Origin: Bryoerythrophyllum caledonicum
Lineage: Eukaryota > Streptophyta > Bryopsida > Pottiales > Pottiaceae
Direction: 5' to 3'
Assembly (NCBI GenBank): GCA_963971425.1
Contig: OZ020520.1
Location: 4,444,553-4,508,552, forward strand
Length of the DNA stretch: 64,000 nt
Part shown: piece after piece, positions 2,296 to 61,930 of the stretch
Layout of the letters: every line of letters starts with the position of its first letter
How positions within the stretch are numbered: the stretch's first letter is position 1
Position numbers and translations under genes: made by a program
Notes under the pieces: generated by a model
Databases searched by the model: none
What the model saw: only the letters and a program-made list of their open reading frames with translations
What the model was told of the DNA's origin: nothing

Positions 2296-2900
2296 CTAAG
2301 TGCATAATTGCTTAATTGCGTGTTTTGCTTGTAATACGCACAAGTTTACAAAAATATGTTGTAATATGCACAAGGTTTCGACACTTTTTTCGGCACTTGC
2401 TTGTAATATGCACAAGTTTTCGACACTTTTTTCAACACTTGCTTGTAATACGTATAAGTTTTCGACACTTTTTTCGACACTTGCTTGCAATATGCACAAG
2501 TTTTCGACACTTGCTTGTAATACGCACAAGTTTACAAAAATTTGTTGTAATATGCACAAGGTTTCGACACTTTTTTTGACACTTGCTTGTAATATGCATA
2601 AGTTTTCGACACTTTTTTCGACACTTGCTTGTAATACGCACAAGTTTACAAAAATATGTTGTAACATGCATAAGGTTTCGACACTGTTTTCGACACTTGC
2701 TTGTAATATGCACAAGTTTTCGACACTTTTTTCGACACTTGCTTGTAATACGCACAAGTTTACAAAAATATGTTGTAATATGCACAAGGTTTCGACACTT
2801 TTTTCGACACTTGCTTGTAATATGCACAAGTTTTCGACACTTTTCCGACACTTTCTTCTAATATGCACAAGTTTTCGACACTTTTTTCGACAATTCACAA
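2296..2900. repeat. Tandem array with CTTGTAATAYGCACAAG units
   Basis: About 600 bp are built from a few alternating phrases: an interrupted palindrome CTTGTAATATGCACAAG (arms CTTGT/ACAAG), TTTTCGACACTTTTTTCGACACTTG, and TTTACAAAAATATGTTGTAATATG. The palindrome recurs roughly every 50-60 bp, more than ten times. Long open frames exist on both strands only because the repeat length keeps frame; they encode low-complexity repeats and are not genes. Confidence 0.85.
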
Positions 2901-3259
2901 AAACTGTCGAAAAAATAGTGTCGAAAAGAGCCCAATTTGTAGTAGTGCCTACAGGAATTCAGACGGGTCTATGTGGGACGGTTTCTACCGAAAAAATCAC
3001 AACAAATACTTTTTCGGCTGAGACAGCCAAGGGCTAGAAAACAAGTGATCAAGCTGCTGACGCAAAGACTACCTCGGATTGCCTAAATCCGAGCAGCCAG
3101 TTGCAAATTGTGATATATTTTGTCGATTACTGATTATTCCTTCCTTATTTTCATGACCAACTTGTAAGGTGGTCCCTGGATCTACAGTTACAGACGGGCT
3201 ATTTTTGGGCCGCGGGAGGAAGTTGCAAGTGCGACCATCGCGTAAGGAATTCGTCTTTC
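2901..3259. other. Spacer, no gene seen
   Basis: This is sequence downstream of the tandem array. It still contains one or two decayed GTCGAAAA phrases at its left edge. Nothing else is recognisable. Confidence 0.3.
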
Positions 3260-6471: not shown

Positions 6472-6482
6472 CTTCACATCAC
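6472..6482. repeat. Target-site duplication, left copy
   Basis: CTTCACATCAC is repeated exactly at 20534-20544 in the same orientation, immediately outside the inverted ends. An 11-bp duplication fits the 8-11 bp usual for Mutator-like elements. Confidence 0.85.
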
Positions 6483-6545
6483 GGGGATTGCTAGTATGTG
6501 AGCCGTGAGCCGTGAGCCGTGAGCCGAAAGCCGTGAGCTGTGAGC
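6483..6545 (+). repeat. Left terminal inverted repeat with GTGAGCC heptamers
   Basis: A ~15-bp unique tip (GGGGATTGCTAGTAT) is followed by about eight 7-bp units: GTGAGCC repeated, with GAAAGCC, GTGAGCT and ATGAGC variants. It is the inverted counterpart of 20450-20533. Tandem heptamers in the subterminal region may be transposase-binding sites; that role is inference. Confidence 0.85.
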
Positions 6546-7494
6546 CATGAGCGGTGGTTGGTAGGGAAAATTCTACCAAATATTTTGAGAACGAGAGTGG
6601 GAACCGCGAAAATTATATAGTATGAAGCCTATATCCGTGAGAAATTGATCTAAACTGGAAAAGTAATAAAGCCTATTTCCGTGCAAATTTCACATGTACA
6701 ACAATCTTTCCACCGTCGCCTTCCTAAATATCCATCCATTTCTCCCAATCCCTACATGTCCATCAATATCCCACTATTTGAGTTATTTTAAATCTTTGTA
6801 TCCATTTTTATTACCTTCAATATTTTTTGTATTGGTCTTACCGTTTTTTTATTTATTTATTTCAATATTACCTTTTCAAGCAAAAGTACATCTTTGATAT
6901 TTTTTTTGTACTTCTATATTATTCAATACTTTTCTTCCTCATACTAATTGTTATTTTTTTTAAGTCTAATCATGTCTATATCTTATTTGTCTCTAATATT
7001 TCTACAACTCTCTTCAATATAATATGTAAGGTGGCGCATAATATTTTTTGATATTTGTTGTAGTATGTTAATTATTAATAATAAATTTTCATTTCTATAA
7101 TACCCTCTATCATTACAATTTTAATGAATTCTAATCAACTATTAATTTTCCATTTATGTCTTTTATCTACATATTAAATTCTAAAATGCTCTTAGTTTAG
7201 TTTTGAAAGGATTGTAGTAGTTCCTATCTTTGTCAAAATTCACAGTCTAAATTGACCTTCTTCAGTTTAGGATTTAGGGTCGAACGTCTCTATTTTACAA
7301 GTGAACTTAATTATTTTTCAGATGATATGCAAATATCAATCAAAGAAGTGAAGTATGTAAGATCAAAAAGCGAAGCAAATGATGAACACAATTGTAGGAG
7401 ATAGAAAAATTTCATATGGAATACCAAAAATACAAACTCACAATGTATTACTGAAAAAAGATGTGAAACAAAGAAGAATATAATTCATACAAAT
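6546..7494. other. AT-rich subterminal region of the MULE
   Basis: This is AT-rich sequence between the left terminal repeat and the 3' end of the minus-strand gene. A small hairpin lies near 6557-6578 (TTGGTAG...CTACCAA). The rest probably contains the 3' UTR of the minus-strand gene. No additional gene is evident. Confidence 0.4.
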
Positions 7495-10400
7495 TTAAGA
7501 AGTAATATTTGGACTATCATCACTATCGATGCTATCCTCGCTATCCTCAACTGCTTCAATGTCCAAGTATTGAGCAACACGAGGGTCATATCGATGGGTA
7601 TGATATGGTGGGCTTGAAGATGATACTGTAGCCATCGCCTGCGCTAAGTCTTCTATATGCGGCGGAAGTAGGAACGGTCGAGTAGGTGATTTGGCAATGG
7701 CCATCAATCTTCAAAGAATATAAAAGTAGTGTCAACGTACAATTCTTAAATTTGAAAGTAAAAGAAAAAAATAATAACCACAACTTACTTACTCAAACGA
7801 TTTCGTTTTGCAACGTGGCGCACTGGAATGTCATCTTCGTCTACGTTAATAACCGCTTGCATAGAATTAGAGGTTTCTGGCGGTGGTGGCGCATCTCGAA
7901 GTGATGCAAGGACGACCTCAAAAATTACAGGATCGGCTTCAAAAGCAACCAGATGGCGGCTTGAGCAGCGGCAAGCGCGAATAGAGGCTCCTACAATTAA
8001 ACCAAAAAATTAGCGGAATTCCAAAGTCTCGATATCAATAACAATAAAAAGAGGAGTGTCGCATAATTACCTGTAGAGGCACTAGTATCGAGGACAACAC
8101 CACCAGCCTTTGTCAATGCTTGAATTAGGGTCTGCATTAAAATTGGATCCTTCTCCCGACCTCCTCTCCATGGCTTAACTCCATGAAGGAGTTGTGTTTT
8201 TGGCGATACATTGTTGAAGATGATATCATCTTCACCGACATTGATATAGCCATCCAATGTAGATTGATCTTGTTCAAAATGAAAAGCTGGAAGCGATTCA
8301 TGAACTAGGAGAAGGATGCGGAAGCGACGTGTCTACAAAAAACAATGTACATATTAGTCTCAAATATGTAGAAAGTATTCATGAAAGGAGTAAGGATTAT
8401 AAAACTCACCAACATAGATTGATTGGTAGGAGAGGTCAATTCCAGCTCATTAATGCCCCACCAATCTTTGACAATTTTGAATTCATATGTTTTTGCATAT
8501 GTTCGTACGTCTGTTCGAATAGTCAATGACTCGGGCATAAAAATTAATAAACTAGCATGAGTTTGCAAGTAGAAATGAGCAAACTCAAAGATAGCTTCCA
8601 ATTCAGTCACACTATATGCATTCCACTGTGGAATGTCAGTGCTAGTAGATGAAATATTTGGAACCGGCAGCCCTTCAGGAATATCGACAATGATGAGATC
8701 AAATCCATCATGAGGACACGATGTAGAACGCACACGAGTTCCTCGACCCTGTCCAACCTACATATATAAAATAGAACAAAGTGTAATTGCGAGTCAATGT
8801 GTATAGATATTAAAACTGATTGAATTTTTTGTTAATATACATAGGGAAGCACAGAAACGTAAATTATACCATAACTCACTCAAAATATATTATAACTAAT
8901 TCAATACTCAAAATAACAATATAGAAATAAATTAAATCATGAGACATACCGTTTCAACGAAGTCATGCATCCTCTTCATAAGTGTTTGGTCCTTCTTCAT
9001 TTCCATCAATTGAAAAATTGATGTATTTTCAACAAAAACTTTTGTTGATAAGTCCATAGAAGAAACAGGGCAAGTACCACACGCAAGCTTCCTAGCCTGA
9101 ATAGAGTTTTGATAAGCTTGGTTGGCATTGATGGCCGGAGTAGGAATTATTGAATTAGCTGCAGTCAATACATTTGGTGGAGTCAGTAATCGAGTGCCAT
9201 CCTGGTGAATAATAACTTCTGCAAGAATCTTTGATGCACCAGCTGCTTCAGTTCCCTTTGACGCTTTCGAGGTCTTTGTTGTCTTTGTTGTGGTTGTCTG
9301 CGCTTTTGCCGTTGGGGCTGCCTTTTTCTTCCCTTTCTGAGTTGTTATCAATGCTGCTGCAACCTCAGGGTCATCCAAGGTATCATCTGCATCGTCTTCA
9401 AGCAGAATAGTTGGAACCTTGGTTTTCAATCCTACTTTCTCTTCTTCCTCCTCCGCGGGGCAAAATGCAGGTGGACAATCTAAATACCAAGCTCCACTCT
9501 GTAAATGAGCAAGACTCCATTTCTTTTGTTGCGCTGGAGTGTAGACACATAGTTTTGATGCCTTATCTGTCCAAGATGATAGAAATGGTGGTAGAGCTTG
9601 TGGAAGGATGGCACTTTTCGCCAACAGCTCCCTCCGTAGATATCTAAACAATATTATCAATAAAATATAAGATTATTGTTGAAAGAAAGATCATATCAAC
9701 TGAAATAAATAAGTATATTGACCCACCTGAAGAGAACTCGTTTAATGGCTAGTATACCACTAGCCATATCTTGTAGTTTTGATGATTTCGTAAAAGGAGT
9801 CTCTGATTTGAAAAATGAAATAAAAGCCTTTTCCCAAACCGCAATTCTCCAACGCTCTACATATTCGCCAATCTTTAAAATCCCAGGCGATGCTTCCCAG
9901 TCAATGGGGCCAAGATCAGGCGACATATTTTCAAACTCAAGCACCACTGCATCCTCCAACTACAGAATCAAGAAGAAAGTAAATGTATTTAGTACATCTT
10001 GATATGACAAAATAAGTAATACAAAAAACATAAAAAATATAGAGTTCAATGAAATCAAAGGACAAATTCAAAACTCACCTGAGCCCAAAATGTGGCACGA
10101 ATGAGCCATTGATCAAAGACTGCTTCTTTAACAGCACCAGTTGGAAATCGTAAAGACTCACGAGTCATATTAGATGAGTTCCACCATTTCAGCCAACGTC
10201 CTTTGAACTCTGCTTCAACTGTTGCAGTAGCCACCTTTTGCAATTTTTCAAGTGACATATCCGGCTTTGGAACATTGTTCCAATGCCTTGTGATCTAATT
10301 AACAAATACCCAAACATCAAACATTAGATAACAACTTAGGAACATGTTTTACAATATAATTGAATGATGATTAAAATTAATTACCTCATACATGAATTCG

Positions 10401-12653
10401 GATCCATTCTTGGGATCAGCCACCGCCAACAACTTTTCAAATTCTTGGCTACGAATGGTCTTGATGGCTGCCTTTGCAGCCTTCTCCATCGCCTCCCAAA
10501 CCCCCTTTGGAGTTTGCTCCTCCGTTGGAATATTTGCTTTATAATCTCGACAAGCCTCATCAGAGGCAGAGGCAATCTCACGCTGCAGGTGACATGGTTA
10601 TGAAAACATAATTAGATAGTTGTTATTGAGTTTACATGTATAGAGCATGATACATACTCACCCGATAGAGAAACGATATGAACACATTGATTGTCAATGT
10701 GTACCAAGTCTTTGAATTTCTTTTGAATTTTTCACAACTCTTAAAATCTTCCTCCGGAATAAGAGCTTTGAAATCAGTCAAAGGAAGAACACCAAAGTGT
10801 TGAATTCGGTGCAACTTATGTACCAAATTTGTTTTCACATGATCAAGTTCCGTGGACCTGCAAATCACATCCAATTGTTGTTAAAAAATCTAGGCATTTG
10901 GTATTATATTGACAATGCATGGAAACTATGGGCAAAATTTCAGTACATTAGTGTGAACTCACCGATTTACTTCATTCATAGCATCGAGGAGAGGGCCCAA
11001 ATTTCCTCTAGGATCAATAACAATGCATTCCACGGGTCGATAGAAGTTGGACTCATAACGGTCGCCCGAATAGTTTTTTTCAATATACCTCCACCATGCT
11101 GTGAACCGGTGATTGCCTTCCCAAATGTATAGCATTTTCCCATGAAGGCCAGAGAGTTCAGGGTCATCTTGAACTTGTTCATCAAACGTATCGCTTGCGA
11201 TTTTCCATTGAGTACTCCAGGTAGATGAAATTATAGGAGATACTTCATTGACGTGGCCAACATCATTATAGATAGACACATATAAAGGACGATCTCCAGA
11301 ATGGTAACCATTGACAAACTCAGCTTCCAACTTCTTCACATCTTGCTCAAGTATTGGTCTTACCAGTGGGAGAGGAACCAACCTACAGAGTGGAACAAGC
11401 ACTCTAGAATGGGACGGATGGACTTGAAGGCTTGAAAGAAATCCAAACGAATCAGGCTTCTGTTGCTTTCTCACCCAAATTTCAGAGGCTTGCATGTCTC
11501 CAATATCCTCTGGAAATATGCCCTCATCCTTGTCTTTTGCCACCTCCATGGCGCTTGCCTCCACCATCTCTCTATTCTCCAAGTCCTGAACAACCTCCAC
11601 GACATTATCCTCTTCCATACTAGTTACGTTCTCCAGGTCTTTATCCAACTCCAAGTCTGTGGAAGACATTGGACTAAAACTTGGCTGCCTTTCCTGAAAA
11701 AAAAAAACACAAGAGTAAATAATCAAACACTATTTGGCAAGCATCTAAGGTCACTCAAACAAAACTCAAACATGATCACTCAAACATTCAGTTCCAGGTC
11801 AATAATTAGGAAGAGTAAAAAGTCGTAGAGATCGATAATCATCGTGAGAGGGTCTCGGCACCGAGAGTATCTCGACTCTCTGGGGATCCTGCGCAAGCGA
11901 GTTGCTAATCATCATTCTGTAACACATTTGCCACCGAGTGTTAAACTCTTAGTGTTGATTTCGAGACTTCAGAACACTCTGAGTTCAAACTATGATCTTT
12001 CCCCATTCGAACTACAGATCAAGTGACACTCAACAGGGTCTTCTTTCTTCGCTGATTTTTCCAAGCCCGTTCCATTTGCTCGATAGTAGACCGGGACAGT
12101 GGGAATCTCCTTAATCCATTCATGCAAGTCACTAGTTAGATGACGAGGCATTCGGCTACCTTAAGAGAGTCAAAGTTACTCCCGCCGTTCATCCTCCCCA
12201 GGTTCTGAAGATCATCATCCTGAGGGGTCTCGGCACCGAGAGGGTCTCGAGAGGATCAAGTGCTAGGGTCGGGACAGTGATCGGGACAGTGGGATTGGGA
12301 CAGTGATCGGGACAGTGGGATCGGGACAGTGGGAATCTCGTTAATCCTTTCATGGAAGTCACTAGTTTGATGACGAGGCATTCGGCTACCTTAAGAGAGT
12401 CAAAGTTCTCGCCATCACTCCCACAGTTCGACGATCGCATCCGAGAGGGTCTCGAGAGGACACCGATGCAGTAAGAGAGTCGGGTCTGATCCAGAGCTAG
12501 GTCGCTTTAGTGCTAGGGTCTCTCTCGGAGATCCAGATCTTGTCAACGTTTTGCGTGTTGAAAATTGACACTCAACAAGGTCTTCTTCCCTCGCTGATTA
12601 ACCCAAGCCCGTTCCAGTAGCTGTGGTTTTGCTAGATAGTAGATCGGGACAGT

Positions 12654-12687
<34 letters not shown>

Positions 12688-12882
12688 GTTTGGCGACGAG
12701 GCATTCGGCTACCTAACTAGAGTCAATATTTTCTCCCGCCGTTCACCCACCCCCAAGTTCTAACGATCATCAACGTGAAGGGTCTCGGCACCGAGAGGGT
12801 ATCTCTGGGTCTTCTTTCCTCGCTGTTTTCTTCAAGCCCGTTCCATTCGTTGTGGTCTTGCTGGAGAGTAGATCGGGACAGT

Positions 12883-12916
<34 letters not shown>

Positions 12917-15660
12917 GTTAGATGACGAGGCATTCGGCTACCATATGAGAGTCAAAGTTACTCCCGCCGTTCTCTCTTCCCCCGTTCTGACAAACATCAT
13001 TCTGAGGGGTCTCGGCACCGAGAGGGTCTGGAGAGGTCTCCGAGATGCAGTAAGAGGGTCGGGTCAAATCCAGTACTAGGGTCGGTTCACTGCTAGGGTC
13101 TCTCATAGATCCAGATCTAGTCTTCGTTTCTTGTGTGGAAGGTGACATCCAGCAGGGACTTCTTTCCTCACTGTTTTTTCCAAGCCCGATCCTGTCGCTG
13201 TGGTTTTGCTACATAGTAGATCGGGACAGTGGGAATCTCGATAATCCTTTCATGCGCGTCACTGATTAGATGACGAGGCATTCGGCTACCTTAAGAGAGT
13301 CATAGTTATTCCCACCGTACACCCTCCCACCCTAAATCCTCCTACCGTTCTGACGATGTATCATCCTGCGGGGTCTCGGCACCGAGAGGGTCGGATCTAG
13401 TTTGAGGGTCAGATCCAGTTCTAGGGTCGTGTCTTTGCTAGGGTCTCTCTAAGATCATCATCTAAATCTCTCTAACGAGCACTAGATGCCATCATGTCCT
13501 CGTGAGAGCTAGATGTCCTCGTGAGAGCAGTACTGTCTCACAAAAGGGTCTCGGCGCCGAAATACCCCGCGTGTGAGGCAACTAAGGACCTGTGAGGCAA
13601 CTAAGGACTCGGAGCCTGTGAGGTAAGTGGGAGCGCACGCCTGATCCACATGTATCAACACTCGTAACGCACAAAAAATAAACACACACCCACTATGGAT
13701 TCGTCACGCACCTGACGGAGCCTCCGTAGATATACATACAACAAATCAGCGCTGTCCACTCAAGAGAAGGGAAGCTCTGCGTTGAATTCCACCACCAGCG
13801 AGCAAAGTGCAATGCAACTAGAACGGTCGAACTGGTGCACACCACCATACACTATCAAGTGCCCCGAATCAAGGACGCCGAGTGCTTGGTTGGAAGCACA
13901 TGTGATGCCACAAAAGAAGCAGAACTGCAGGACCCTAGTTGTGAAGTCGTAGGCCCGTTTTGTGAAGTCGCAGGACCTAAACGGGGAATGGTAACGGGGA
14001 TCGGGGGACAGGGAACGCAGTCGAGGAAGGAGGCATGCAGTCAGGGAACGGGGATCGGGGAAGGTAGCGAGGAACGCAGTGGAGGAAAGAAAGCGGAGCT
14101 AAGTTATAAGAAGTTTTATTCAAATCTTTAGCATCTCGGCACCGAGTCACTTAAAATTAACTTATAAAATATCAAGTTAAAGATTTCTCCGATTGAAAAA
14201 AATAACCATTATTCATAAGATATTGTCATTAATATGAGAACCATGACTCGAAGATCTAATGTAATGCCAAAATAATAGGAATCTATTGGTTATTTAATGA
14301 CGTTTTATAAAAACAAATCAATAAAAATAAGTATCTCGGCACCGAGACCCTTAAAATCGAACTTCCTGAACTAAAAAATACAAAAAACTGTGTTGTTAGT
14401 TACATTCTTGCAGTAAAATGTTCACAAAATTAGAGGATCTCGGCACCGAGACCCATGAACTTCTACTCTATAATATCAAAATTATAGTCATCAGCCACAC
14501 TAGTCAGGGTTAATTTATAGAACCAAATATCCTTACAGAAGAGGAACTCGGCACCGAGACCCGTCGAAACAATCATGGAGAACTTAACAACAACAAACTT
14601 TGCTGTTAGTTACATAGATAATATTACAATCACAAGTATATAAATTAGAGGTTCTCGGCACCGAGACCCATGAACTTTACCTCTTAAATATCATAATCAA
14701 AAACTAAACAACTCTTTTCAAAAAAACATATACAGCCACATATGCATGAAAAATAGGGTCTCGGCACCGAGACCCGTAGAAACAGACATCCAGAACTCAA
14801 AAGCAGCGAACTTTGTTGTTAATTTCATAGATATTATTGCAATCACATGTTCATAAATATGCGGATCTCGGCACCGAGACCCATTCACATCACCTCTAAA
14901 ATATCAGAATCAAACAACTCAATTTCACTTCTCAAAGTAGCTTACAAAACAACATGTCTAGGAAGAAGATGATCTCGGCATCGAGACCGTTGAAAGAAAC
15001 AACCAGAACTCAAAATCAACAAACTATGTTAGTAGTTACATTGGTATAATTGCAAAAACATGTTCATTAATTAGACGGACTCGGCACCGAGACCCATGAA
15101 CTTGAACTCCCAAATATTAGAATCAGAGAACTCTACCGCTTTTTAATTAGAAAACCATACAACATATTCCAGAGAAAAATGATCTCGGCATCAAGATCCA
15201 TAGAAACAAACACCCTAAACTCAAAACAATAAGCACTGTTGACAATGTAATAGGAATTACTGCATTAACATGTTCACAAAATTAGAGGATCTAATTACCA
15301 TATTGGATAAAGATAATTTAACTAAAAAAAAGTTTGTAAAGTATGTCTTACCCTGTTGCACTGCCCAATGTTGATCATTGCCGCTTCCTCTTCCCCTTCT
15401 GCAATGTTAACTACTTCGATGTCACCTCTGACAATGTCTTCAACATTCTCACCCCCAAACTCAAGTATCCTAGCAATTGCATCAGCTGAAGTACTTCTTC
15501 TGGATCTAATTTTGCTAGACTGCATCCTAGCTCTCAGCAGCGATTTCCTACTCGAGAAATATAATCGAGGCTTTCTCTTCCTCTTCTTCCCCTTTGATAT
15601 GATAGGTGACACTGAAGACAACTCTTTGACTAGCATCTGTTCAATCCTCCATACATACAT
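7495..15660 (-). CDS. ParB-like domain fused to DNA-methyltransferase fold, 11 exons
   Basis: A hand-built model joins 11 exons with GT-AG introns and no stop: 15660-15352, 11693-10963, 10857-10662, 10582-10385, 10294-10079, 9959-9727, 9643-8950, 8757-8410, 8332-8071, 7990-7789, 7708-7495. The product is about 1,200 residues. The N-terminus is basic with KGKKRKRKPR, a likely nuclear signal. Residues ~210-340 resemble a ParB/sulfiredoxin-fold domain: VPLPLVRP, then YIWEGNHRFTAW at ~292-303, matching the ParB G-x-H-R signature. A lysine/threonine-rich linker lies in exon 7. DLIIVDIPEG (~879-888) sits at the DPPY motif of beta-class N6A/N4C methyltransferases. KPWRGGREKDPIL and VVLDTSASTGASIRACR...HLVAFEADP (~1021-1083) match the HPTxKP and motif I regions. 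DPPY is altered, so catalysis is uncertain. Start 15636 is an alternative ATG. It shares the element with a transposase, and the palindrome array lies in its 3.66-kb intron 1. Confidence 0.75.
11845..13565. repeat. Intron-1 repeat block A with CTCGGCACCGAG palindromes
   Basis: Palindromes CTCGGCACCGAG, often extended to GGTCTCGGCACCGAGAGGG, lie near 11854, 12229, 12784, 13011, 13375 and 13549 (last one degenerate). Between them recur longer phrases such as GATCGGGACAGTGGGAATCT and GACGAGGCATTCGGCTACC (near 12138, 12370, 12692, 12921 and 13271). This amounts to about five divergent copies of a 230-370 bp unit. The block lies inside intron 1 of the ParB/methyltransferase gene. Confidence 0.85.
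13566..14130. other. Intron-1 spacer between the two palindrome blocks
   Basis: This is mixed sequence with short local repeats, such as GTGAGGCAACTAAGGAC twice near 13575-13605 and GGGGATCGGGG twice near 13997-14055. A short open frame at 13835-14131 has no recognisable product and overlaps these repeats, so it is not called. Confidence 0.4.
14131..15200. repeat. Intron-1 repeat block B, palindromes every ~107 bp
   Basis: The palindrome CTCGGCACCGAG recurs at 14135, 14335, 14439, 14547, 14654, 14760, 14867, 14974, 15080 and 15184, with the last copies decaying to CATCGAG or CATCAAG. From 14335 on, spacings are 104-108 bp. The spacers alternate between two types: one beginning CCCATGAAC, the other CCCGTNGAAACA and containing AAACTTTGNTGTTAGTTACA. 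The true unit is therefore a ~213-bp dimer. The full core is GGTCTCGGCACCGAGACC in some copies. Confidence 0.9.
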
Positions 15661-16355
15661 AACCTGACAACACTACGAACACATTGAATCATCTTATATA
15701 TTTTGTATGAACAATATATAGAGTTTGTAGGATTGTCTTCATCAATGTGTTCAAGTGTCACGATCTAAAATATAGTAAAAAACCTAAACTTGACAGCTAC
15801 ATATTTCAAATTTATTTTTTAGAATGCAATAGGTTTACAATCTCAGCTTGTTTTTGAAATCCTTCTTACTTAAAGTTATTTAATCCTAATTTTGGGTACT
15901 CCTTGACGGCGTCCTATTTCTACTACCCATAAACGGCGTCTTATTTAATACTCTGTAATGGCGGCTTGTATTTGATTAGGCTTATGACACCTAACTATTA
16001 TTCCACAATTCAAACACCTTCTGGAACTATTATTCCACAATTCAAACACCTTCTGGAAGAATATCATGCCCTTCTTTCTTGCCCCTACCTGCTACTTCTT
16101 TAAATATTTTTTTATTGCAATCAATTAGGGATATGTAGCTGCTTTTGGTTTTCGGTGAATTTCCAATTGACGTTTGGGTTGTTTTTGATGAATGATTTCA
16201 ACTTAGATGATTATCTTACAACCAACAGAGTTCTCTTCATCCAATACTCTACTCATTCAGCAAGATGGAACTAGGCATGTCATTATATAATTGACAGCTC
16301 TTTCATTCCCGAGTCTCTTTCACCTTCATATCCTCTATGCTCTTGCCTTGGCACT
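15661..16355. promoter_or_regulatory. Divergent intergenic region between the two MULE genes
   Basis: The two genes of the element point away from this ~0.7-kb stretch. A TATATAA at 16284-16290 lies about 70 bp upstream of the transposase ATG. On the other strand an AT run at ~15694-15702 could serve the methyltransferase-fold gene. A perfect 32-bp tandem duplication occupies 15993-16024 and 16025-16056. Promoter function is inferred from position. Confidence 0.5.
16284..16290 (+). promoter_or_regulatory. TATA-like box for the transposase
   Basis: TATATAA lies about 70 bp before the ATG at 16356 and is the best TATA match in the divergent region on this strand. Confidence 0.45.
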
Positions 16356-19300
16356 ATGGTTGCTCCGCACGATGAGGTTGATGGAGATGTCGTTGTCTAT
16401 GGTCCCGGTCCAGGAGTACCAATCTCATTTGCTGTTGGTCAAGAAGGCATCTCCGTTGTTTCTGCTAATCGTCTACGTTTTCGTTTCGATATTGTTGAGG
16501 GTACAATGCATGTGGATAAGGAAGTCTTTGATATTGTCACCGGGGAAATGACTCATACCGTAGCTCAGACTTGTACAACTCAAGACGAGGGACCTGTATG
16601 GTTGTTAAAGCCAGGAAAGTATAGAGTGTATGGTCTGAAAGATAGCAACATCCGTGCCTCTCTTGACTCTCTGGCTCCAAAACTGTCAACTTCTTTGCAC
16701 GTTACTCCTCCTCTTCATAAAGTGAAATTGGAACCCATTGACACTTGTATTCATGTACTTAGTGACGACTCGGATAGTGATTGTCTCGTACAGTCTACAA
16801 GCATATCAAGAGGTCCTTCCTCCTCAACACCAATGTCTTCTCAGTCCAGTCGTCCATCCTCTTCGAAGCCTCCCCTACCTCCTACCACCTCCAATAGCAT
16901 CGTGGACTGCATACGAGAACTTAGTGCCCGACGGAGATCCAAGTCTCATCTCAGTAAAGTAGACTTTGATTCTATTAAAATAAAAAAGGTAGATTTTCTC
17001 CCCCCCTCCTTCAATGGCGATATTATTTTTGAACTACCCCCGGTCGGAAAGACCAACTCCTCCTCTCAAGCCGGACTACTACAAGGTATGGACAAGAGAC
17101 ACGATGGTCATGCCTGGTCTCGTACCATAACATCTCATATCAGAAACGAGTCGAACTTGTCGTTCCGAATTTCTAGATGCCTTGGACATCTCCAGTGTAT
17201 GAATTCTGAGTGCGAGTATCTGAGACGGGTCCATCGTACATCTACCGCTAACGAAACTGAATGGGATGGTTTTTGTCCCAGCCCCTTTGATGTTCATAGT
17301 TCTCCTCCTCCGCTATCCACTCTAGTTTGTAGCATGTGTCAACACCCCCCTACATGTTTAGAAACTTGCATGGCAATAATTTATTATGCCTTTGGCCATG
17401 ACCAAATGACTCGTGCATGTGTCCATTTGGGAACACACAATCACCCAGTAAAACTAGGGATGTGTAGAGAGTCATCCGTGAAGCTCCGTAGCCTCATTGG
17501 AGAGCAGGTAGAACGAACTCCTACTGCAACAAATTCTGCCATAGTTCTTGAGGCTAGCAAAGAGTTTCTAGGAGAATTATTACTCTGTTCTGAAGGCGTT
17601 CCTCAAAAGACTCTTCCATTTGAAGAGCTCATACCAGTGCTGGATAAGTTCAAGCATATGACGTCCCCAAGTATTCGCAATGATGTCACTACGTTCAGGT
17701 ATTTGAGACGTTTTGGTGTAATGGATAGCATTACTAGATTGAGGGGGGCTTCCAATTGGGCCTTCGTTCAGGAGAACAAGTTTCCCGGTCAAGGAACAGA
17801 CTCCGATAAGGTATTCCTATTCAAGATGGCCGAAGTAGGACCAGGGAGCGGTGTGGACCTAGTACGACGCATGCAACCACACGGTGACCTTGGAGACGCT
17901 TGGATCATGTTCGATCACGTGAAACGAGTGAAGGACTGGACAACTATGGCATGCCATGTCTATGACTCAACATATTGTCGTGTGATGACGATTGCAGTTT
18001 GTGACATGCAGTCTGAAGATGTAGCAGCACAGCTAATATTCTGGCAGAATCTCAATGCAGTGGCAGCGAGGCATGGTATTGACAACGTCACGTTTAAGGG
18101 CTTCATGGCGGACAGTGCCCAAGCAAACTGGAATGCAGTTCGCATTACGTACGGCGATGGAGATGCAAAGAAGCCCATGGATAATCGAGAGCGCACATGT
18201 CTGTTCCACTGGGCACAGTCTCTCGAAAAACATACAAAGGCGGATATTCGAGCCGACCTCCAAGAACAACACCGACAACTTTGCAAGCAATACAAGAATG
18301 CCAAGACACTCGAAGAGGCAGACACTAAGTATACAGCTATCAGATCATGGTGGCTGTCATCAGGAGCAACAACGGATGAAGGAGTTGTTCGTCTAGACCT
18401 TTGGCTCGCGTTTTGGCATTTCCGATATAGACAGTGGGGAGGCTTCATGGAACTTGTAAGTTCTTTCTTGACATTACTACCTTTGGATGTGCATGTTTTG
18501 GAAAGCCCCTCCTCTTAAGGGTGCGCTTACTTATCTAATGGCTTAACTGACTATATGTTTGTTAAGCTCATAGTTCTTACGGGTCTTCCAACTTCTGTAG
18601 GCTCTTTCTGAAGCGGAATTGGCTGAAATGCCATCGTGCAACCTTGCAGAATCCATACACAACAAATGGTTACAACAATCAGGGAAAAGAGGTACAGATC
18701 TCTACGTGGCAACTGTTGATGATATGGTTCGTGCTTTCATGCAAGTGGTTGCATACTATCAATTCTTGAAGGGTGAGAAGCCAGGTACTGGACCGGAAAA
18801 GGATGAACTCCGACTTCGAACTGCTCAACGTACCGCTCATCGCTCGGGTAACTCCAAGGTTCTACATGAGGCCCTCGCCAAAATGCCTGGAGGTAATGAG
18901 TTCTGCACTCGCGATCCTCATTTAGAGGGAGAAGAGGTTTTTATGTCATTGAAGCGAAAGGCAGATCTTCCTCCGGGATCTGAGTTTGATTCACACAGGC
19001 CGGATAAGATTAGCATCTCCCGTCCACGGTTTCAGAAACGACCATTTTCGCGCACTATCCACGACCTCACTTCCGACGAGGATGTTTTAAAGGAAGCTCC
19101 AGCGGCACCAAAGGTTGTTCTCCCTTCCCCTAAAACTCTTGCACCAACTACGAGGGTGGAACACGTAAAGGCTGTCCAGGAAACCGACTGTGATGAGACT
19201 GCATGGCATATTGCTCGCCTTCCAAAGACATCTGCGAAAGCGTGTTTCGCTCAACAGGCCATCACAAGGAAGAAGTGTGTGGCACGCATTGTCAAGGATG

Positions 19301-20055
19301 GTAAAAGTACTGTGGCACCAACTTATACAGGTACGATGGATAATTACAAAAAGAACCGGATTGAGAAGATGCAGTTCTTCTTTTGTAATGATGACATTGA
19401 GAGATGTGTGAACGGCACTAGAAGGAAATGGGTTGTCTCCAAACCAGACGTTCCTAGTGTATGGCCAGTGAAGATCGGCACCAATCTTAGCCAGAAAGAG
19501 ATATTTGCATTAGAAGACGCCGGATTCCGATTGGCCGAACGCGTGGAGCTGTCTCCTCGGAAACTTTTTGGGGATCAAGGAGTGCCACTGGACTTCTCAT
19601 CGTTTCTGACCCCGAAGGAGCCTACTGTGCATCCAGCGAAGCGATTTGGAAAGGTCATTCGAAGAAATCCCAAAGCTCCTACTGTCGCACATCAGAATAG
19701 CTGCGCATCTGCTTTGTCCGTGGTTGGCAAGATATGTAAAGTTCATATGATTCCTCCTCCAGGGTTTGGCTGCGTTCTGTCATTCGAGTCCAAAAGCATT
19801 TCGAAGGTGTCAAAGTATGTGCTTAGTATTGGCCAATTCCCCAGTTGTGATTGTCCATCTTTCATCGAGATGAACAACAAGTCACTTGGCAAACGTGGAC
19901 AATGGATATATTGTAAGCATTTGTACTATGTCTTCACCATAGTTTGCGGTTTAGATCTTGATATGGATGTCTTCATGCATGCCCCTAGTTTCAGCTTCAA
20001 CGAGATTAAGCGAGTTTTACAAATCCTTTCTGTGAAGCATACAATCTTCTATTAG
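16356..20055 (+). CDS. MULE transposase with N-terminal zinc finger and SWIM domain
   Basis: Two exons, 16356-18455 and 18601-20055, join in phase across a GTAAGT...TGTAG intron to give 1,184 residues. N-terminal region: acidic and serine-rich linker. From about residue 270 there is a Cys/His region (CLGHLQC-MNSEC ... CLETC ... THNH) of the WRKY-GCM1/FLYWCH type. The RNase H-like core shows D537 in HVYDSTYC, D586 in GFMADSAQANW, and a likely E717 in CNLAESIHNKW, the place where MULE transposases usually keep the last acidic residue. C-terminal SWIM finger: C1116-x-C1118 ... C1138-x-H1140. Together these identify a Mutator-superfamily transposase expected to cut and paste the surrounding element in the nucleus. 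The frame is free of stops and all three acidic residues are present, so it may be active. The third catalytic residue is inferred. Confidence 0.9.
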
Positions 20056-20449
20056 TAGTAGACTACATTGGAGGTAGATTGTATGATCATCTAACAATTG
20101 TAATGAAAATGTGGTGAGACTACAAGGGCCACCACTCGAGTTTGTTACATTTGTGTACAGAATTTACTTGCTTTAAAATGTTGTTTTTTTCTTCTATTTC
20201 ATTTCTAGTTTTCATCCATGAATATTTATTGTACTCAAGTCAATATAAAGTTGAATAGCACTGTCTCCAAAAACCCTAAAGCCATACCATAAACCTACGG
20301 TTATAAGTCTTTCTTAAACCGTACATGAACCCTACTCCACGGTCATAGGTCCTTTTGTGCATGCCTTTTTTAGTAAATATTGCTTAAAAATATTATATTT
20401 TATTCTGTTTTTAGTAAATTATTTTTAAAATTAGCAAATTTTGTTATGT
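20056..20449. other. Transposase 3' flank
   Basis: This is AT-rich sequence between the transposase stop and the right terminal repeat. AATAT/AATAAA-like signals are possible but not distinctive. No further gene is seen. Confidence 0.4.
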
Positions 20450-20533
20450 GGCTCATGCCTCACGGCTTACGGCTCATGGCTCACGGCTCATGGCTCACGG
20501 CTCACGGCTCATGGCTCACACGCTAGCTTCGTC
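20450..20533 (-). repeat. Right terminal inverted repeat with GTGAGCC heptamers
   Basis: On the minus strand it reads GACGAAGCTAGCGTGTGAGC, then about ten 7-bp units (GTGAGCC and ATGAGCC alternating, with GTAAGCC and GTGAGGC variants). It is inverted relative to 6483-6545. The alternating ATGAGCC/GTGAGCC pattern differs from the left end. Confidence 0.85.
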
Positions 20534-20544
20534 CTTCACATCAC
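20534..20544. repeat. Target-site duplication, right copy
   Basis: CTTCACATCAC is identical to 6472-6482. Confidence 0.85.
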
Positions 20545-25600: not shown

Positions 25601-26918
25601 AAGTGGGAAGGTTGTCTGTGCTGAAGTACTTCGCCCAATCGTCAAGCGTTCTTGTCCTCAATACTAGTCATCAATTGACAAGACACACTACTGCAGACTA
25701 TAAGGTATGGTGATGATGTTCATTATTTTGCCAGCTTCATGCTTGTCCGAATGTTGATCCGAGTCTTGAAGTTCTCTTCATGTTCATGTTTAGAGAGGGC
25801 GCTTAAGACCTGCACATTCGAGGAAATTGTATTCCTGCTAATATATGCAAAGAGCACAAGGAACTCGTATATTTCGTCCTTGTGAATCCCATGTGACTTT
25901 GATTCTTTCCTGCATTTGTGCGACGCCACTTGCGTAAGCTAGTCGCTTGCTTCTTTTAGGGATGTTTCAACGTATGACTAGCTTTGTGGGTTCGGAGAAA
26001 AGTGTATCTTGAAGGCCTGTGGTGTTGAATTCTGTAGGCCAGACTTGTATTATTCTAGATACCTTTTTATTTTGAAGCATAACTCTCGTTGAGTGGAAGA
26101 GATAGGTAACACGGCAAAGCTCGGGATTCTGCAGCGTAATTTGTAACTAAATTTATATCTCCTTGTGTTTGCCTCCAGCAACGTTGTATTTGACAACGAC
26201 AATGCTGGAACTTTTCTTCTCGCTCGTTCTCTGTCTTGTGTAAGTGTAGTATAGATTCTTGTCTATATATTGAATTGATCGAGACCAACTGCTTTCTTTC
26301 TCAATTTTAGGGTTGCAAAATTGAAATGATGAGAGGTGGACCGCACTAAACAAGTTACATGTTTAGAAAGGTCTTCTCGGACCTCAGAAGGCATACTTGA
26401 ATATCTCCAATTTGCATCATGTCTTTGTGGTGTGTTTAATCGTGTTTGTCAAGTCCAATAACTAACAATTTCACTTCCGACAACTTTGAGAGCATTCATG
26501 AGTAATATCCATATCTTTTGCAGCTTTATGCTTGCCAAATTTTGGGGCTTGAGGCCCATCTCGGTAGATATAATGCACTCATATTTTATGTTGAGTGAAG
26601 GGCGTTCCTATTGACTGGCACTCAAGTGGATAGTTCTATGTGTCCTTTTCCATATTGCTCTAAATGTATGTTGTGACATTTGTTTTTTCGAATCATGCCA
26701 TGTGGCTTTGAATGCATTGCAATGGATTCGTCTTGGTTGTTGCATTCTAGGTTTTAGATAGTTGTTGGGTTGATAGTACATTACATTCATGTGCTTTCAG
26801 CCCTCTAATTACCTACCTTCCAAAACTTCATAGAGGTGGTGTAGGGCATGATCATGGGGGCTGATCTTCTCCAAAGTAATTGGTGTGGTTGTTGTATTGT
26901 TGGTTTTGTACCAGAGTG
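22691..26918 (+). promoter_or_regulatory. Long upstream/leader region of the NLR gene
   Basis: This ~4-kb region before the NLR start has no convincing protein-coding gene. It includes a GC-rich block (22750-23640) and several possible splice signals, so it may hold the promoter and 5' UTR exons with introns. Parts at ~22725-22895 and ~24850-24910 are repeated in the left part of the window (3.3-5.25 kb). The exact transcription start cannot be set from sequence alone. Confidence 0.35.
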
Positions 26919-29465
26919 ATGGCGTCAAGTCTTGTGATTGATGCAACCGTAGGTGCTGCTTTTGGAGGGGTTGCTACTCCCATTGTTAATGTCCTGATTG
27001 CGGGTTTGAAGATTGTTTGGCGGTGCAAAGAAGAATGCCGAGATTTGGGGGAGACGTTGGCTAGAATTCAGCCTTCTGTGGAGAAGATATTTATTTGCTA
27101 CAAAGATGATCCTACTCGGGAGGAGTGGTTGAAGGCATTTGATAAATGCGTCGTGGATGCCCAAGTGGTTCTGAAGAAGTGTAAGAGGCGGAGACTCAAC
27201 AAATTCATTAGATATTTGAAAACGGTGTCATATGGTGGGAAAATATTGAAGTTACGTGATCGCATCAATCAGCTCCTTGTCGAGGCCCCTTTCGTGCTTC
27301 ACGAGCCCAAAATGTCTAGAATTGGAATCAAGCAAGATGTGCCCGAAAGGATTTTTGGGATGGAGGACTCCTTCATGCGAGTCAAATCCGCTATTTGTGA
27401 AGGACATAGCAGGGAGGGTAGTAGCTGTGTTGGCATTCAAGGCATGGGAGGAGCTGGAAAAACTCTGCTTGCACAAATGGTGAACAACGATGAAGAGATC
27501 CAGGCACTCTTTGGAAAGGACTTAGTGATTTGGATCACAGTTGGCCGTGATGCCATTGTTTCCGAGATTTACAAACGAATGAGGCATCACTTACATGTAG
27601 GTCGTGATGGTGGATCGCTCGAAGACCAGCGCACAGATTTAATGAATGCCTTTGCAGCGGTTAAAGCTCTGCTGATACTAGATGATGTGTGGGATGGTTG
27701 TGTACATGAAAGCGAGGAAATGATTTACTGGTTGAACATTTCAAAAGGATCAAAATGTGTGACACTTGTCACCACACGAGATGAGGCGGTCACTCGCCAA
27801 TGTGTCAATGCAGGAGAGGAGATTATTTTACGCCTTTCAGAGGAGCATAGTTGGCAATTGTTTTGCAGCCATGCTTTTGGCATTGATACTCCAAATTTGG
27901 ATGAGGAGTTGGAGGGCATAGCAAGGGCTGTATGTAAGGAATGTGATTGCCTCCCATTGGCGTTGAGAGTAATTGGATGTGCTATGGAAGGTAATAGCGA
28001 TTGGAGGAGAATGTTGCGCCATATGCAAGGCTCTACCATGCCCAACCAAAGTACAGATCAAAAATTATTCAAGCGCCTTCAAGTTAGCTATGATGAGTTG
28101 GATGGGCCTTTGAAGATATGTTTTCTATACTTTGCAGCATTTCCCGAAGATTATGGGGTAGAGGTTAAAGAATTATGTCAGATTTGGGTGGTAGAAGGAC
28201 TGTTTGGAGAGAACTTGACTGAAGAGGAAGCTATGGAGGAAGCTCATTGTGCTTTGAAGGTGTTGATGCAGCGGTCGTTGATTGAAGTGTGTGAAGCGAT
28301 TGGGGGTGAGGCCCTTGAACGAGTGAAGATGCATGACATATTGCGTGATCTTGCAATCCATCTGGTAAGCAAGGGCAATGAATGTGAACGAGAATGTTTG
28401 TTCAAGATGGAGAAGGAGGGTCTTGTGGATTTTCCAAGTACATGGTTGGGCTGCGAATTGAAGGTGAGAAGGTTGTCCTTATGGGGCGGTACTATTAAGA
28501 ATTTCCCTGATGAGATAGTAGCTCCCAACTTGAAGATATGTATTTTGCACGGTGACCCACGAGCAGTATCAGATTCATTTGGATCAAGTTTGCACCTTCC
28601 GAATATTGGAGAGGAATTCTTTGAAAAACTTCAAAGATTGAAATTTCTTCAAATGAGATGGTATGGAAGTATCAGGCAATTGCCAGGGAGTGTAGGAGAA
28701 TTGAGGTCTCTCCAACACCTCGATCTTTCTGGATGTTTGGCATTGGTGCAGCTTCCGGAGAGCATGGGAGGATTGGGGTCCCTTCAACACCTCGATCTTT
28801 CTGAATGTGGGGCATTGGAGCAACTTCCTGAGAGCATGGGAGGATTGGGGTCCCTTCAATATCTCAATCTTCGTTGGTGTAAGGCATTGAAGGAGCTTCC
28901 TGAGAGCATGGAAAGATTAGGGTCCCTTCAATACCTCGATCTTTCTTATTGTTGGACATTGGAGCAACTTCTGGGGAGCATGGGAGGATTGGGGTCCCTT
29001 CAACACCTCGATCTTTCTGATTGTGGGGGATTGGAGCAACTTCCTGAGAGCATTGGAAAATTGGGGTCCCTTCAACACCTCAATCTTTCTGGATGTGGGG
29101 CATTGGAGCAGCTTCCGGAGAGCATGGGAGGATTGGGGTCCCTTCAACACCTCGATCTTTCTTTCTGTAGGTCATTGAAGCAGCTTCCTAAGAGCATTGG
29201 AGGATTGGGGTCCCTTCAAGAACTCAATCTTTCTTGTTGCTGGACATTGGAGCAGCTTCCGGAGAGCATGGGAGAATTGGGGTCCCTTCAACACCTCGAT
29301 CTTCATGATTGTGGGGCATTGGAGCAGCTTCCGGAGAGCATGGGAGAATTGAGGTCACTTCAATACCTCGATCTTGATGATTGTGGGGCATTGGAGCACC
29401 TTCCGGAGAGCATGGGAAGATTGGGGTTCCTTCAACACTCAATCTTTCATTTTGTAAGGCATTGA
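26919..29465 (+). CDS. CC(RPW8-like)-NB-ARC-LRR resistance protein, frameshifted end
   Basis: An 848-residue frame runs from ATG 26919 (MASSLVID) to TGA 29463-29465 in one exon. The N-terminal ~130 residues resemble the RPW8-type coiled-coil domain. The NB-ARC shows P-loop GMGGAGKT (~180), kinase-2 ALLILDDVWD, RNBS-B VTLVTTRD, GLPL as CLPLALRVIG, RNBS-D CFLYFAAFPED, and MHD as VKMHDILRDLA. From about residue 600, near-identical ~24-residue LRRs (LGSLQHLDLSGCGALEQLPESMGG) follow. Such proteins are intracellular immune receptors that act as nucleotide switches. The last repeat loses one C of the CAACACCTCAAT consensus near 29437. This shifts frame and ends the protein early; two more LRR-like units remain out of frame to 29578. 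Function may survive because most of the protein is intact. Confidence 0.9.
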   Translation: MASSLVIDATVGAAFGGVATPIVNVLIAGLKIVWRCKEECRDLGETLARIQPSVEKIFICYKDDPTREEWLKAFDKCVVDAQVVLKKCKRRRLNKFIRYLKTVSYGGKILKLRDRINQLLVEAPFVLHEPKMSRIGIKQDVPERIFGMEDSFMRVKSAICEGHSREGSSCVGIQGMGGAGKTLLAQMVNNDEEIQALFGKDLVIWITVGRDAIVSEIYKRMRHHLHVGRDGGSLEDQRTDLMNAFAAVKALLILDDVWDGCVHESEEMIYWLNISKGSKCVTLVTTRDEAVTRQCVNAGEEIILRLSEEHSWQLFCSHAFGIDTPNLDEELEGIARAVCKECDCLPLALRVIGCAMEGNSDWRRMLRHMQGSTMPNQSTDQKLFKRLQVSYDELDGPLKICFLYFAAFPEDYGVEVKELCQIWVVEGLFGENLTEEEAMEEAHCALKVLMQRSLIEVCEAIGGEALERVKMHDILRDLAIHLVSKGNECERECLFKMEKEGLVDFPSTWLGCELKVRRLSLWGGTIKNFPDEIVAPNLKICILHGDPRAVSDSFGSSLHLPNIGEEFFEKLQRLKFLQMRWYGSIRQLPGSVGELRSLQHLDLSGCLALVQLPESMGGLGSLQHLDLSECGALEQLPESMGGLGSLQYLNLRWCKALKELPESMERLGSLQYLDLSYCWTLEQLLGSMGGLGSLQHLDLSDCGGLEQLPESIGKLGSLQHLNLSGCGALEQLPESMGGLGSLQHLDLSFCRSLKQLPKSIGGLGSLQELNLSCCWTLEQLPESMGELGSLQHLDLHDCGALEQLPESMGELRSLQYLDLDDCGALEHLPESMGRLGFLQHSIFHFVRH

Positions 29466-54330: not shown

Positions 54331-55148
54331 GCGGACTGCACGCGGACATGCGATGACCGTCCGCGGACATGCCGCGGACTGCGTGCGGACACTGCCGCAA
54401 ACTGGCTGCGGATATGCAGCGGACTGAACTTGGACCCGTGGACTGAGTGCAGACCTGCGGACTGCCTACGGATACGCAGCGGGCTGGATATGTACCCGCG
54501 GACTGGCTGCAAACGCTGCTGCGGACTGGCTGCGGACACTACCGCAGACTGGCCGCGGATACGTAGCGGACTGGATGTGGACCCGCCGACTGGCTGCAGA
54601 TACGCAGCGGACTGGATGGGAACCCGCGGACTGGCTGCGGACTAGCTGCAGACTGGCTGCAGACGCTGCCGCGGACTGATCGCGGACTGGCCGCGGATAC
54701 GTAGCGGACTGGATGTGGACCCGCGGACTGGCTGCGGATACGCAGCGGACTGGATGGGGACCCGCGGATTGGCTGCGGACGCTGCTGCGGACTGGCTGCC
54801 GCGGACTGATCGCGGACTGGCCGCGGACACTGCCGCGGATACGTAGCGGGCTGGATGTGGACCCGCGGACTGGCTGCGGACGCTGCCGCAGACTGATCGC
54901 GGACTGGTCGCGGACACCGCCACGGATACGTAGCGGACTGGATGTGGACCCGCGGACTGGCTGCGGATACGCAGCGGACTGGATGGGGACCCGCGGATTG
55001 AGTGCAGACCCGCGGACTGGCTGCGGACGTTGCTGCTGACGCTGCTGCGGACTGATCGCGGACTGGCCGCGGACACTGCCGCGGACTAGCTGCGGACACT
55101 TCTGCGGACTGATCGCGGTCACGGCCGCGGACTGATCGCGGACTCGCA
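54331..55148. repeat. GC-rich array 1, unit CCGCGGACTG
   Basis: About 800 bp of GCGGACTGG-CTGCGGACGCTG-CCGCGGACTGATCGCGGACTGG phrases, interrupted by GGATACGCAGCGGACTGGAT and GGACCCG. It lies just 3' of the kinase gene. All long frames in it encode the same SPRPVRG/RTGCG-like repeat and are artefacts. Confidence 0.95.
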
Positions 55149-55453
55149 CCGGCCTAGGTGTGGGGGTGCCAATGCAACGCGGATTGAGAGTGGGGGAGCG
55201 CGGATATGGTAGTTAGGATATTTTTTAATTACGTTATTCCATTTTTATTTCTGAAGATACAAAGGGCGGATTGGGAGACCAATTCAAAACAATTTGTACA
55301 AAATTGTTCTTCATTCAAAATTATAGGGAAGTCCAAAAAGGCATTCTCTTCTTGCAAATAACCGAATACAAATTAGACAACACTTCACAACATAGAGAAG
55401 ATGCTACATACCCTACAGTATCTAAGGACTATGAAATCACAATATACTATATA
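55149..55453. other. Kinase-gene 3' flank
   Basis: AT-rich sequence between array 1 and the stop codon of the kinase gene; it probably includes its 3' UTR. Confidence 0.35.
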
Positions 55454-57406: not shown

Positions 57407-57627
57407 TCCTGTAAAGTAGTTAACCGGTCACTTAAACCGGTCACTTAAAGTGCAGTGCGAAAGTGAGTGAGTCTGGAAAAAAATGACAAGGGTTACCCCC
57501 GCATTCGTCTTTCCCAACTCCTATACCCTCGAAACCCGTGCAATGGTGCTCGCGCAACAAGGTCTCGGGTTCCTATTGGGCAAGGAAATGGAGGGAAAAA
57601 AGTGAGGACGTCAATGGCCTATCCGCC

Positions 57628-57635
57628 TTTATATA
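57628..57635 (-). promoter_or_regulatory. TATA box of the kinase gene
   Basis: The minus strand reads TATATAAA, about 225 bp before the ATG at 57406 and directly downstream (in gene direction) of GC-rich array 2. Confidence 0.6.
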
Positions 57636-57698
57636 GGCTGCAAGGGGTCGGGAACATTGCGGATAGGGTTGGGAACCTGGAGAACCGCGCGGTCGGGG

Positions 57699-58120
57699 AG
57701 CGGACAGGCCGCGAACTGGAAGCGGACGGGGCGCGGACTGGACGTGGACAGGGCGCGGACTGGACGCGGACGGGGCGCGGATTTGGTTGGAAGAGCCCGC
57801 GGACTGGCAGCGGATTGCCCGCGGACTGGCCGCGGACTTGCCCGCGGACTGCCCGCGGACGGGGCGCGGATTGGGTTGGAAGAGCCCGCGGACTGGCAAC
57901 CGATTGCCCGCGGACTGACCGCGGACTTGCCCGCGGACTGGCAGCGGATTGCCCGCGGACTGCCCGCGGACAGGGCGCGGATTGGGTTGGAAGAGCCCGC
58001 GGACTGGCAACCGATTGCCCGCGGACTGACCGCGGACTGGCAGCGGATTGCCCGCGGACTGGTAGCGGACTGCCCGCGGACTGGCCCCCAGAGACCGCGG
58101 ACTGCCCGCGGCCTGTCTGC
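57699..58120. repeat. GC-rich array 2, unit CCGCGGACTG
   Basis: About 420 bp of GCGGACTGGCAGCGGATTGC, CCGCGGACTGACCGCGGAC and GGGCGCGGATTGGGTTGGAA phrases. A ~115-bp higher-order unit (GAAGAGCCCGCGGACTGGCA...) repeats three to four times. It sits immediately upstream of the kinase promoter. Confidence 0.95.
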
Positions 58121-58522
58121 TGAATGGGCGTCGTTTTTCTCCTTTGAATTGTTCTTTGCAACTGCCGTTGCTGTAGGGGTGGGGTTTGGGGGAAACAACA
58201 AGGTCGCCGTGTAACTACAAGTTTTGGCAATGTGAGAACGGTAATGTCCAAATTTGAACCTCGATATAAATGCATTCAAAATGGGTAAAAAATATCCCGT
58301 TGTGTACAACTCACTGTGAATTCCATGTTCGTAATGTCAAAGATAACAACATGAGAGCTTTGGTTACACTAATTCAATCGGGAAATTAGACTTGGTGATA
58401 GTTTACTGAATCTTTAATCCTTCACTTCCACAAATTAATGTGGTGCTCTAAGCTCTTGCAGCATCTCTTGCATGAACATTACTCCGCGTTCAATATCCAT
58501 GACGTCCATGGCCTTGCCGATA
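58121..58522. other. Spacer between array 2 and the RING gene
   Basis: No gene recognised; it probably contains the 3' UTR of the RING gene. Confidence 0.35.
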
Positions 58523-61705: not shown

Positions 61706-61731
61706 TAGCCCACTAACCCCTAGTCCAGTAC

Positions 61732-61930
61732 ACTAAACACTGAATATAGTGTAGAGGGATTATTCACGAGATCACTCACACTAGTTTCCATAAAAGCATG
61801 TGCATGCCAGGTTCTGATTGGGTATTTGTTCTCAAGCAAGTGTGTGTCAGTCAACAATTGCATGTAAATTTTCAATTAGTGTAGGAAATTTCAAATAGTC
61901 TGGTCTACACTATATTCAACACTATACTCA
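61732..61930. repeat. ~0.2-kb inverted-repeat element
   Basis: TGAATATAGTGTAG (~61743-61756) pairs exactly with CTACACTATATTCA (~61905-61918), with weaker pairing outside. Similar TAGTGTAGAG words appear near 24330. It could be a small MITE; no duplication was identified. Confidence 0.5.

Follow-up and report, generated by a model that had tools for sequence, protein, structure and literature searches.

A MULE-like moss transposon with a second gene of ParB-type and methyltransferase-type folds and a palindrome array that follows this gene

We describe a two-gene transposon in the moss Bryoerythrophyllum caledonicum, located at positions 6483-20533 of a stretch of 64,000 nt (contig OZ020520.1, positions 4,444,553 to 4,508,552) and followed through the 437-Mb assembly. 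This whole stretch is called the window below, and positions without a contig name refer to it. The element resembles the Mutator-like elements (MULEs). Besides a transposase gene it holds a divergently oriented second gene (gene2), whose first intron contains an array of near-palindromic sites. The features are as follows.

6472..6482, no strand: left copy of the target-site duplication, CTTCACATCAC, exact 11 bp
6483..6556, plus strand: left end, array of the heptamer GAGCCGT; 6 of 8 left-end loci begin at this same base, on differing flanks
7495..7708, minus strand: gene2 exon 11, including the stop codon
7789..7990, minus strand: gene2 exon 10, remainder of motif I and the next strand (GASIRAC...VAFEADP)
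8071..8332, minus strand: gene2 exon 9, part of the methyltransferase fold that holds motif X and the beginning of motif I (D..AST)
8410..8757, minus strand: gene2 exon 8, methyltransferase fold, motif IV reading DIPEGLPVP
8950..9643, minus strand: gene2 exon 7, acidic, K/T-rich linker
9727..9959, minus strand: gene2 exon 6
10079..10294, minus strand: gene2 exon 5
10385..10582, minus strand: gene2 exon 4
10662..10857, minus strand: gene2 exon 3
10963..11693, minus strand: gene2 exon 2, ParB/Srx-fold domain with the GNHR motif (modelled part 10963-11522)
11694..15351, minus strand: gene2 intron 1 (3658 bp), with the whole palindrome array inside
11853..15196, plus strand: 16 near-palindromes TCTCGGCACCGAGA (14 bp, at most two mismatches), all inside gene2 intron 1
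15352..15660, minus strand: gene2 exon 1 (103 codons), present in divergent orientation upstream of 7 of 8 transposase loci of at least 77% identity, window included
16356..18455, plus strand: transposase exon 1, with D520, D586 and C615-x2-H618 (protein numbering)
18601..20055, plus strand: transposase exon 2, with two features read by eye, the E in NLAES and a SWIM-like CxC..CxH close to the C terminus
20450..20533, minus strand: right end, inverted heptamer array
20534..20544, no strand: right copy of the target-site duplication, CTTCACATCAC, exact 11 bp

An earlier note on this DNA had described inverted ends with heptamer arrays and an exact 11-bp target duplication; these are indeed present at both ends, and 11 bp falls within the range of 8-11 bp that characterizes the Mutator superfamily. 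Of 53 left-end matches the 8 best were fetched, including the window's own. By exact search the left terminus GGGGATTGCTAGTATG starts at the identical first base in six of these eight, with six different flanks (the window's counted). Four copies, again counting the window's, combine this left end with a right-end array on the opposite strand 14-16 kb away; the note had proposed to look for additional copies with both ends. The copies on contigs C4 and C11 are nearly identical to the window element (99.7% over the left 2.1 kb), which indicates recent movement, and each has at least one stop in the transposase frame.

Both transposase exons join in frame to a protein of 1184 aa, as had been proposed. 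D520, D586, C615 and H618 are invariant across six aligned transposase sequences, and the E of the acidic triad (NLAES, exon 2) was read by eye. MULE transposases are recognized by a D, D and E with C-x2-H between the second D and the E, an arrangement that is found here. No Pfam MULE or SWIM profile matches the joined transposase, both open reading frames or the DDE region (0 families), for which reason we call the element MULE-like; the label draws on the 11-bp duplication together with the motifs of the superfamily, read by eye. Gene2 runs on the minus strand from 15660 down to 7495. Its 11 exons are separated by GT-AG introns and join to 1200 aa with no internal stop, in agreement with the gene model of the earlier note.

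Gene2 belongs to a large genomic family. With a ParB-like segment of 114 aa as query we obtained 1658 first-look candidates genome-wide, of which 150 were scored, all at E <1e-29. Among the places listed (220 for gene2 and 300 for the transposase, compiled from several searches) there are 79 neighbouring pairs within 15 kb: 76 divergent (4.6-13.0 kb apart), 3 on the same strand and 0 convergent. The lists are enriched for pairs as one query was taken from beside a gene2 copy, which has no effect on the orientation counts. Smaller lists yielded 51 pairs, of which 50 are divergent and one is same-strand; random placement (500 trials, with the length of one contig guessed) gave 2.2 pairs on average and 9 at most. 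At a limit of 25 kb, the first two lists only give 48 divergent, 2 same-strand and 4 convergent pairs, the last all more than 17 kb apart. For 27 of the 35 gene2 copies with at least 68% identity in the ParB segment (close copies below), a divergent transposase is present among those listed; overall, 145 of 220 gene2 and 224 of 300 transposase places are unpaired among the places listed.

The earlier note had asked whether gene2 occurs in all autonomous copies. Its exons lie inside all eight left-end loci fetched (window included), whereas none of the 15 copies of a recent transposase family with a 757-aa open frame is near any gene2 among those listed. That family (L047 and related loci, 15 places) is very recent; it may be devoid of gene2, or its gene2 may be divergent. 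At 22 transposase loci of ~67% identity we found only four weak traces of gene2 exon 1 (E 0.004-0.007). As a separate observation, ten copies (C1:33141632 and nine more) share identical 114-aa ParB segments and represent a recent burst; all ten have a divergent transposase at 7287-7289 bp, and the copy on C9 has a second one at 12993 bp.

Ratios of nonsynonymous to synonymous change (dN/dS) were calculated by NG86, exon by exon. Exon 2 gives 0.12-0.17 (dS ~1.2-1.5) against six stop-free relatives at 64-68% identity (L022, L023, L025, L028, L032, L033). In comparison with L034-L036 we obtained 0.13-0.14 for the motif-IV exon, 0.21-0.23 for the next exon and 0.30-0.31 for the linker exon. In L069, a member of another family (~29-50% identity by exon), the protein is kept from the ParB exon almost to its C-terminal end and the introns correspond. 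Judged by these substitution patterns, gene2 is under purifying selection, with dN/dS below 1, which the earlier note had proposed to test. Because divergent pairing recurs in many families, purifying selection is evident and the exons are present in all eight left-end loci, the comparison of copies lends strong support to the view that gene2 was not captured at random but is a functional partner.

A confident structure model of the N-terminal domain speaks for a ParB/Srx-type fold, the best structural matches being ParB, Noc and KorB. Profile signals are weak: among 45 gene2 members Pfam ParBc gives no match, CB_ParB_C matches two (best E 0.089) and a PHROG ParB-like signal is seen in 12 (best E 0.0098). 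The canonical box II of ParB is GERR; gene2 instead reads GNHR, with G-N-H invariant in all 45 aligned members. Exact GNHR occurs in 85 of 116 relatives, and G[ND]H[RQ] in 88 of 116 (counted by pattern; 28 fall outside it). A phage DNA methylase is also found among the fold matches of this half (rank 12, E 0.055), and proteins with the order ParB-then-methylase occur in phages (e.g. the DNA methylase of Mycobacterium phage Vincenzo). Gene2 differs from these by its 1200 aa and an extra middle region, and among viral contigs no gene2 relative was confirmed by tblastn in 15 and 68 pattern matches.

The C-terminal half of gene2 has the fold of a beta-class DNA methyltransferase. With the joined protein as sole query the Pfam profile N6_N4_Mtase reaches only E 0.015, but six of seven family members match it (best 2.4e-7), the first member alone scoring 18.6 bits against a curated cut-off of 26.7. 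The PHROG phage DNA-methyltransferase family matches all seven (best 5.5e-8), and DpnA is matched in the PDB (E 0.013). The DNA-methyltransferase matches shown cover motifs X and I, and the motif order IV - X - I fits the beta class. Both folds claimed in the earlier note hold, one by the model and the other by profiles; of the two profiles it had named, N6_N4_Mtase was recovered and ParBc was not, the support for the ParB half coming from the fold instead.

The catalytic motif IV of beta-class N6/N4 enzymes is (D/N/S)PP(Y/F/W). None of the seven aligned members has this pattern: six read DIPE and the seventh HIPE. Among 43 database relatives, D/N-I/L-P-E is found in 25; the other 18 were missed by the pattern used, and two of these (P0120 and P0122) likewise read DIPEGL. 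The canonical pattern occurs in one of the 43 (SPPF in P0128), away from its DIPE motif IV. A further variant, DVPE, is present in L070 (CADCWO010000058.1), a gene2 relative with intron-like breaks and a contiguous frame of 548 aa, whose contig is labelled as a cyanobacterial metagenome-assembled genome and is probably eukaryotic contamination. Ordinary N6/N4 methylation by gene2 appears doubtful, as both the first proline and the aromatic residue of motif IV have been substituted, and the conservation of the altered motif argues for another use of this half. Self-marking by DNA methylation, one of the roles considered in the earlier note, is weakened accordingly. Most of the 21 relatives in which motif I was read have D..ASTG or a similar sequence there; the near-canonical motif I (DIGAGTG) in P0119, a relative of the methyltransferase half from the moss Ceratodon purpureus, would weigh against a loss of ordinary methylation. 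Overall, the half with the methyltransferase fold probably serves as a module for binding a cofactor or DNA, either non-catalytic or altered, and may be comparable to inactive partners like METTL14.

The palindrome array in intron 1, missed in the earlier note, points to a sequence-specific action on the element itself. Matches to TCTCGGCACCGAGA with at most two mismatches number 27 in the window (both strands) against 0.22 expected. Within the array 15 of the 16 sites are oriented one way, the site at 13549 being symmetric, and nine form a run (14334-15196) with a spacing of 104-108 bp. As this spacing is about ten helical turns the sites might share one face of the DNA, which is suggestive only. 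Genome-wide, exact copies number 412, and the reversed pattern used as control occurs twice. The first 100 exact sites listed (contig C1 and part of C2) were assigned to neighbouring genes: for 56 of them a gene2 match is found within 15 kb, and all 56 are upstream of gene2 on the opposite strand. In the scanned range exact sites accompany 9 of 12 close gene2 elements and none of the 23 gene2 matches of at most 50% identity. When loci that reach upstream of exon 2 are considered, 16 of 18 have at least one site with up to two mismatches. In nine relatives (L022, L023, L025, L028-L033; exon 2 ~64-68%) 0-65 bases of the 1.5 kb upstream of exon 2 can be aligned to the intron of the window element, and each aligned block (18-50 bases) lies on a palindrome, which indicates that the sites persist while the surrounding DNA has turned over.

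The element at C1:3603299 allows the two proteins to be separated. Its ParB segment is 79% identical to that of the window and its array is the same. Its transposase was read in 480 bases 2 kb past the last site, at a place predicted only from the window layout; over aa 132-262 it is just 40% identical (E 3e-28), in a region where five other transposase lineages reach 53-61%. Conversely, no site was found in the 1.5 kb upstream of the 22 transposase loci of ~67% identity (14 of which are near-identical and form one family). In a family whose DDE segment is 80% identical, gene2 is ~50% identical and no exact sites are nearby. As the array is kept with a distant transposase and absent with closer ones, these comparisons show that it follows gene2, not the transposase. 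It seems that gene2 and its array have been exchanged together between transposase lineages.

By analogy, the closest working counterpart would be VANC21 of Arabidopsis. It is described as a MULE-borne anti-silencing protein whose motifs form dense arrays of one orientation in non-coding DNA; VANC21 and VANB21 have tandem repeats in their introns, further ones lie upstream of VANA21, the transposase, and motif arrays differ between related VANDAL elements (PMC5735166). Gene2 resembles VANC in that it is an additional MULE-type protein with one-orientation motif arrays in the non-coding DNA of its own element. It differs in its ParB/Srx and methyltransferase folds, as VANC proteins are described with DUF1985/DUF287, and in its near-palindromic TCTCGGCACCGAGA, the VANC21 motif given there (YAGTATTAY) not being palindromic (PMC5735166). 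Pfam lists only N6_N4_Mtase and Stm1_N for gene2 up to E 10, without DUF1985 or DUF287; gene2 is thus not a VANC.

We infer, with about an even chance of being right, that gene2 encodes a factor with sequence-specific action on the site array of its own element, where it counters silencing or regulates the divergent promoters. The product would be a nuclear protein that recognizes the palindromes of its own element, most likely via the ParB-type half or the region after it. Once bound to the array it would keep the element expressed or mobile, the likeliest route being that it counters silencing or regulates the two divergent promoters, in the way in which VANC serves VANDAL elements. A wider form of this proposal is possible, though doubtful: a nuclear eukaryotic ParB/parS-like system in which a nucleotide-gated ParB fold with a repurposed methyltransferase fold would load at directional arrays in its own gene and coat the element against silencing, the gene-plus-array module being exchanged between transposase lineages.

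Several observations weigh against a self-acting factor. The structure model covers the ParB-type N-terminal domain only, and the reader of the palindrome among the gene2 domains is putative. For 44 of the first 100 sites listed, there is no gene2 among those listed within 15 kb; these sites fall into 21 clusters, five of them with a listed transposase, and may be non-autonomous derivatives, decayed copies or elements with an unscored gene2. Three of the 12 close elements in the scanned range are without an exact site within 15 kb, and two of the 18 loci reaching upstream of exon 2 have no site at all (up to two mismatches). One relative at 81% (L018, with stops) has no aligned block and another at 96% (L015) aligns over 1420 bases, so that neither informs on site conservation. 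Part of the conservation could also result from amplification of the array within each clade. Finally, very close copies with few changes show a higher dN/dS, namely 0.35 (L015) and 0.21 (L027) for exon 2 and 0.51 for the motif-IV exon (L016, L017).

Alternatively, the array might be a regulatory or transposase-binding feature while gene2 is otherwise employed, for example in a MURB- or MutB-like integration role. Additional open reading frames of unknown or DNA-binding role are known in MULEs (mudrB and mutB; PMC6446971), and the array is likewise upstream of the transposase. However, the palindrome tracks the clades of gene2 and not those of the transposase, and the heptamer arrays at both ends are already likely transposase sites, so that we regard this explanation as rather unlikely.

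An active DNA methyltransferase that marks its own element, guided by the ParB half, is improbable. The fold and motif order match the beta class and the Ceratodon relative retains a near-canonical motif I. In addition, dinoflagellate and charophyte retrotransposons carry C5-cytosine methyltransferases shown to methylate CG, for which self-methylation has been suggested (PMC5890265). Gene2 shares with these a DNA-methyltransferase-type gene on a eukaryotic transposon, but it belongs to a DNA transposon and has a beta-class fold with an altered motif IV, and the state of motifs IV and I in most relatives speaks against catalysis.

Somewhat less probable still is a ParB/parS-like clamp with a purpose other than anti-silencing, such as holding, pairing or keeping copies, with the palindromes as sites of nucleoside triphosphate (NTP)-dependent loading followed by spreading. 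The top structural matches and the directional array with its nine evenly spaced sites are in line with such a clamp, yet gene2 differs from bacterial ParB, Noc and KorB by GNHR in place of GERR, by the fused methyltransferase fold and by its location in a eukaryotic transposon, and no helix-turn-helix was identified in it. Capture of host fragments by MULEs is established, but a captured host gene carried as passenger is hardly credible here in view of the 1658 first-look candidates, the repeated divergent pairing, the purifying selection and the co-conserved array.

A few further observations concern the array and the surroundings of the element. Five site clusters have no listed gene2 or transposase within 15 kb (C1:8319386-8320980, C1:10848780-10851574, C1:48421449-48424108, C1:55745104-55747745 and C2:22889068-22891672). 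Their layout is similar, with a single site followed by a run at ~106 bp or double that and, in four of the five, by another single site; they are possibly non-autonomous elements. Elsewhere in the window, a resistance-type gene of the RPW8/NB-ARC/LRR type with repeated LRRs occupies 26880-29465 (plus strand) as a single open frame of 861 aa. A tandem repeat at 2296-3037 is open on both strands and encodes repeated CNMHKFSTLFSTLA-type peptides, and low-complexity frames with PRPVRGQSA-like repeats are found at 54466-55149, 57467-58309 (open on both strands) and 61116-61736.

If gene2 acts as a sequence-specific factor on its own array, sequence-specific self-recognition would have arisen in plant transposons on at least two occasions, each time out of unrelated protein parts, and bacterial-type ParB and methylase folds would serve self-recognition in a plant transposon. 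Protein and site would form a testable pair, in which the genome-wide spread of the 14-bp site predicts binding, and they might possibly provide a new targeting module for plant epigenomes.

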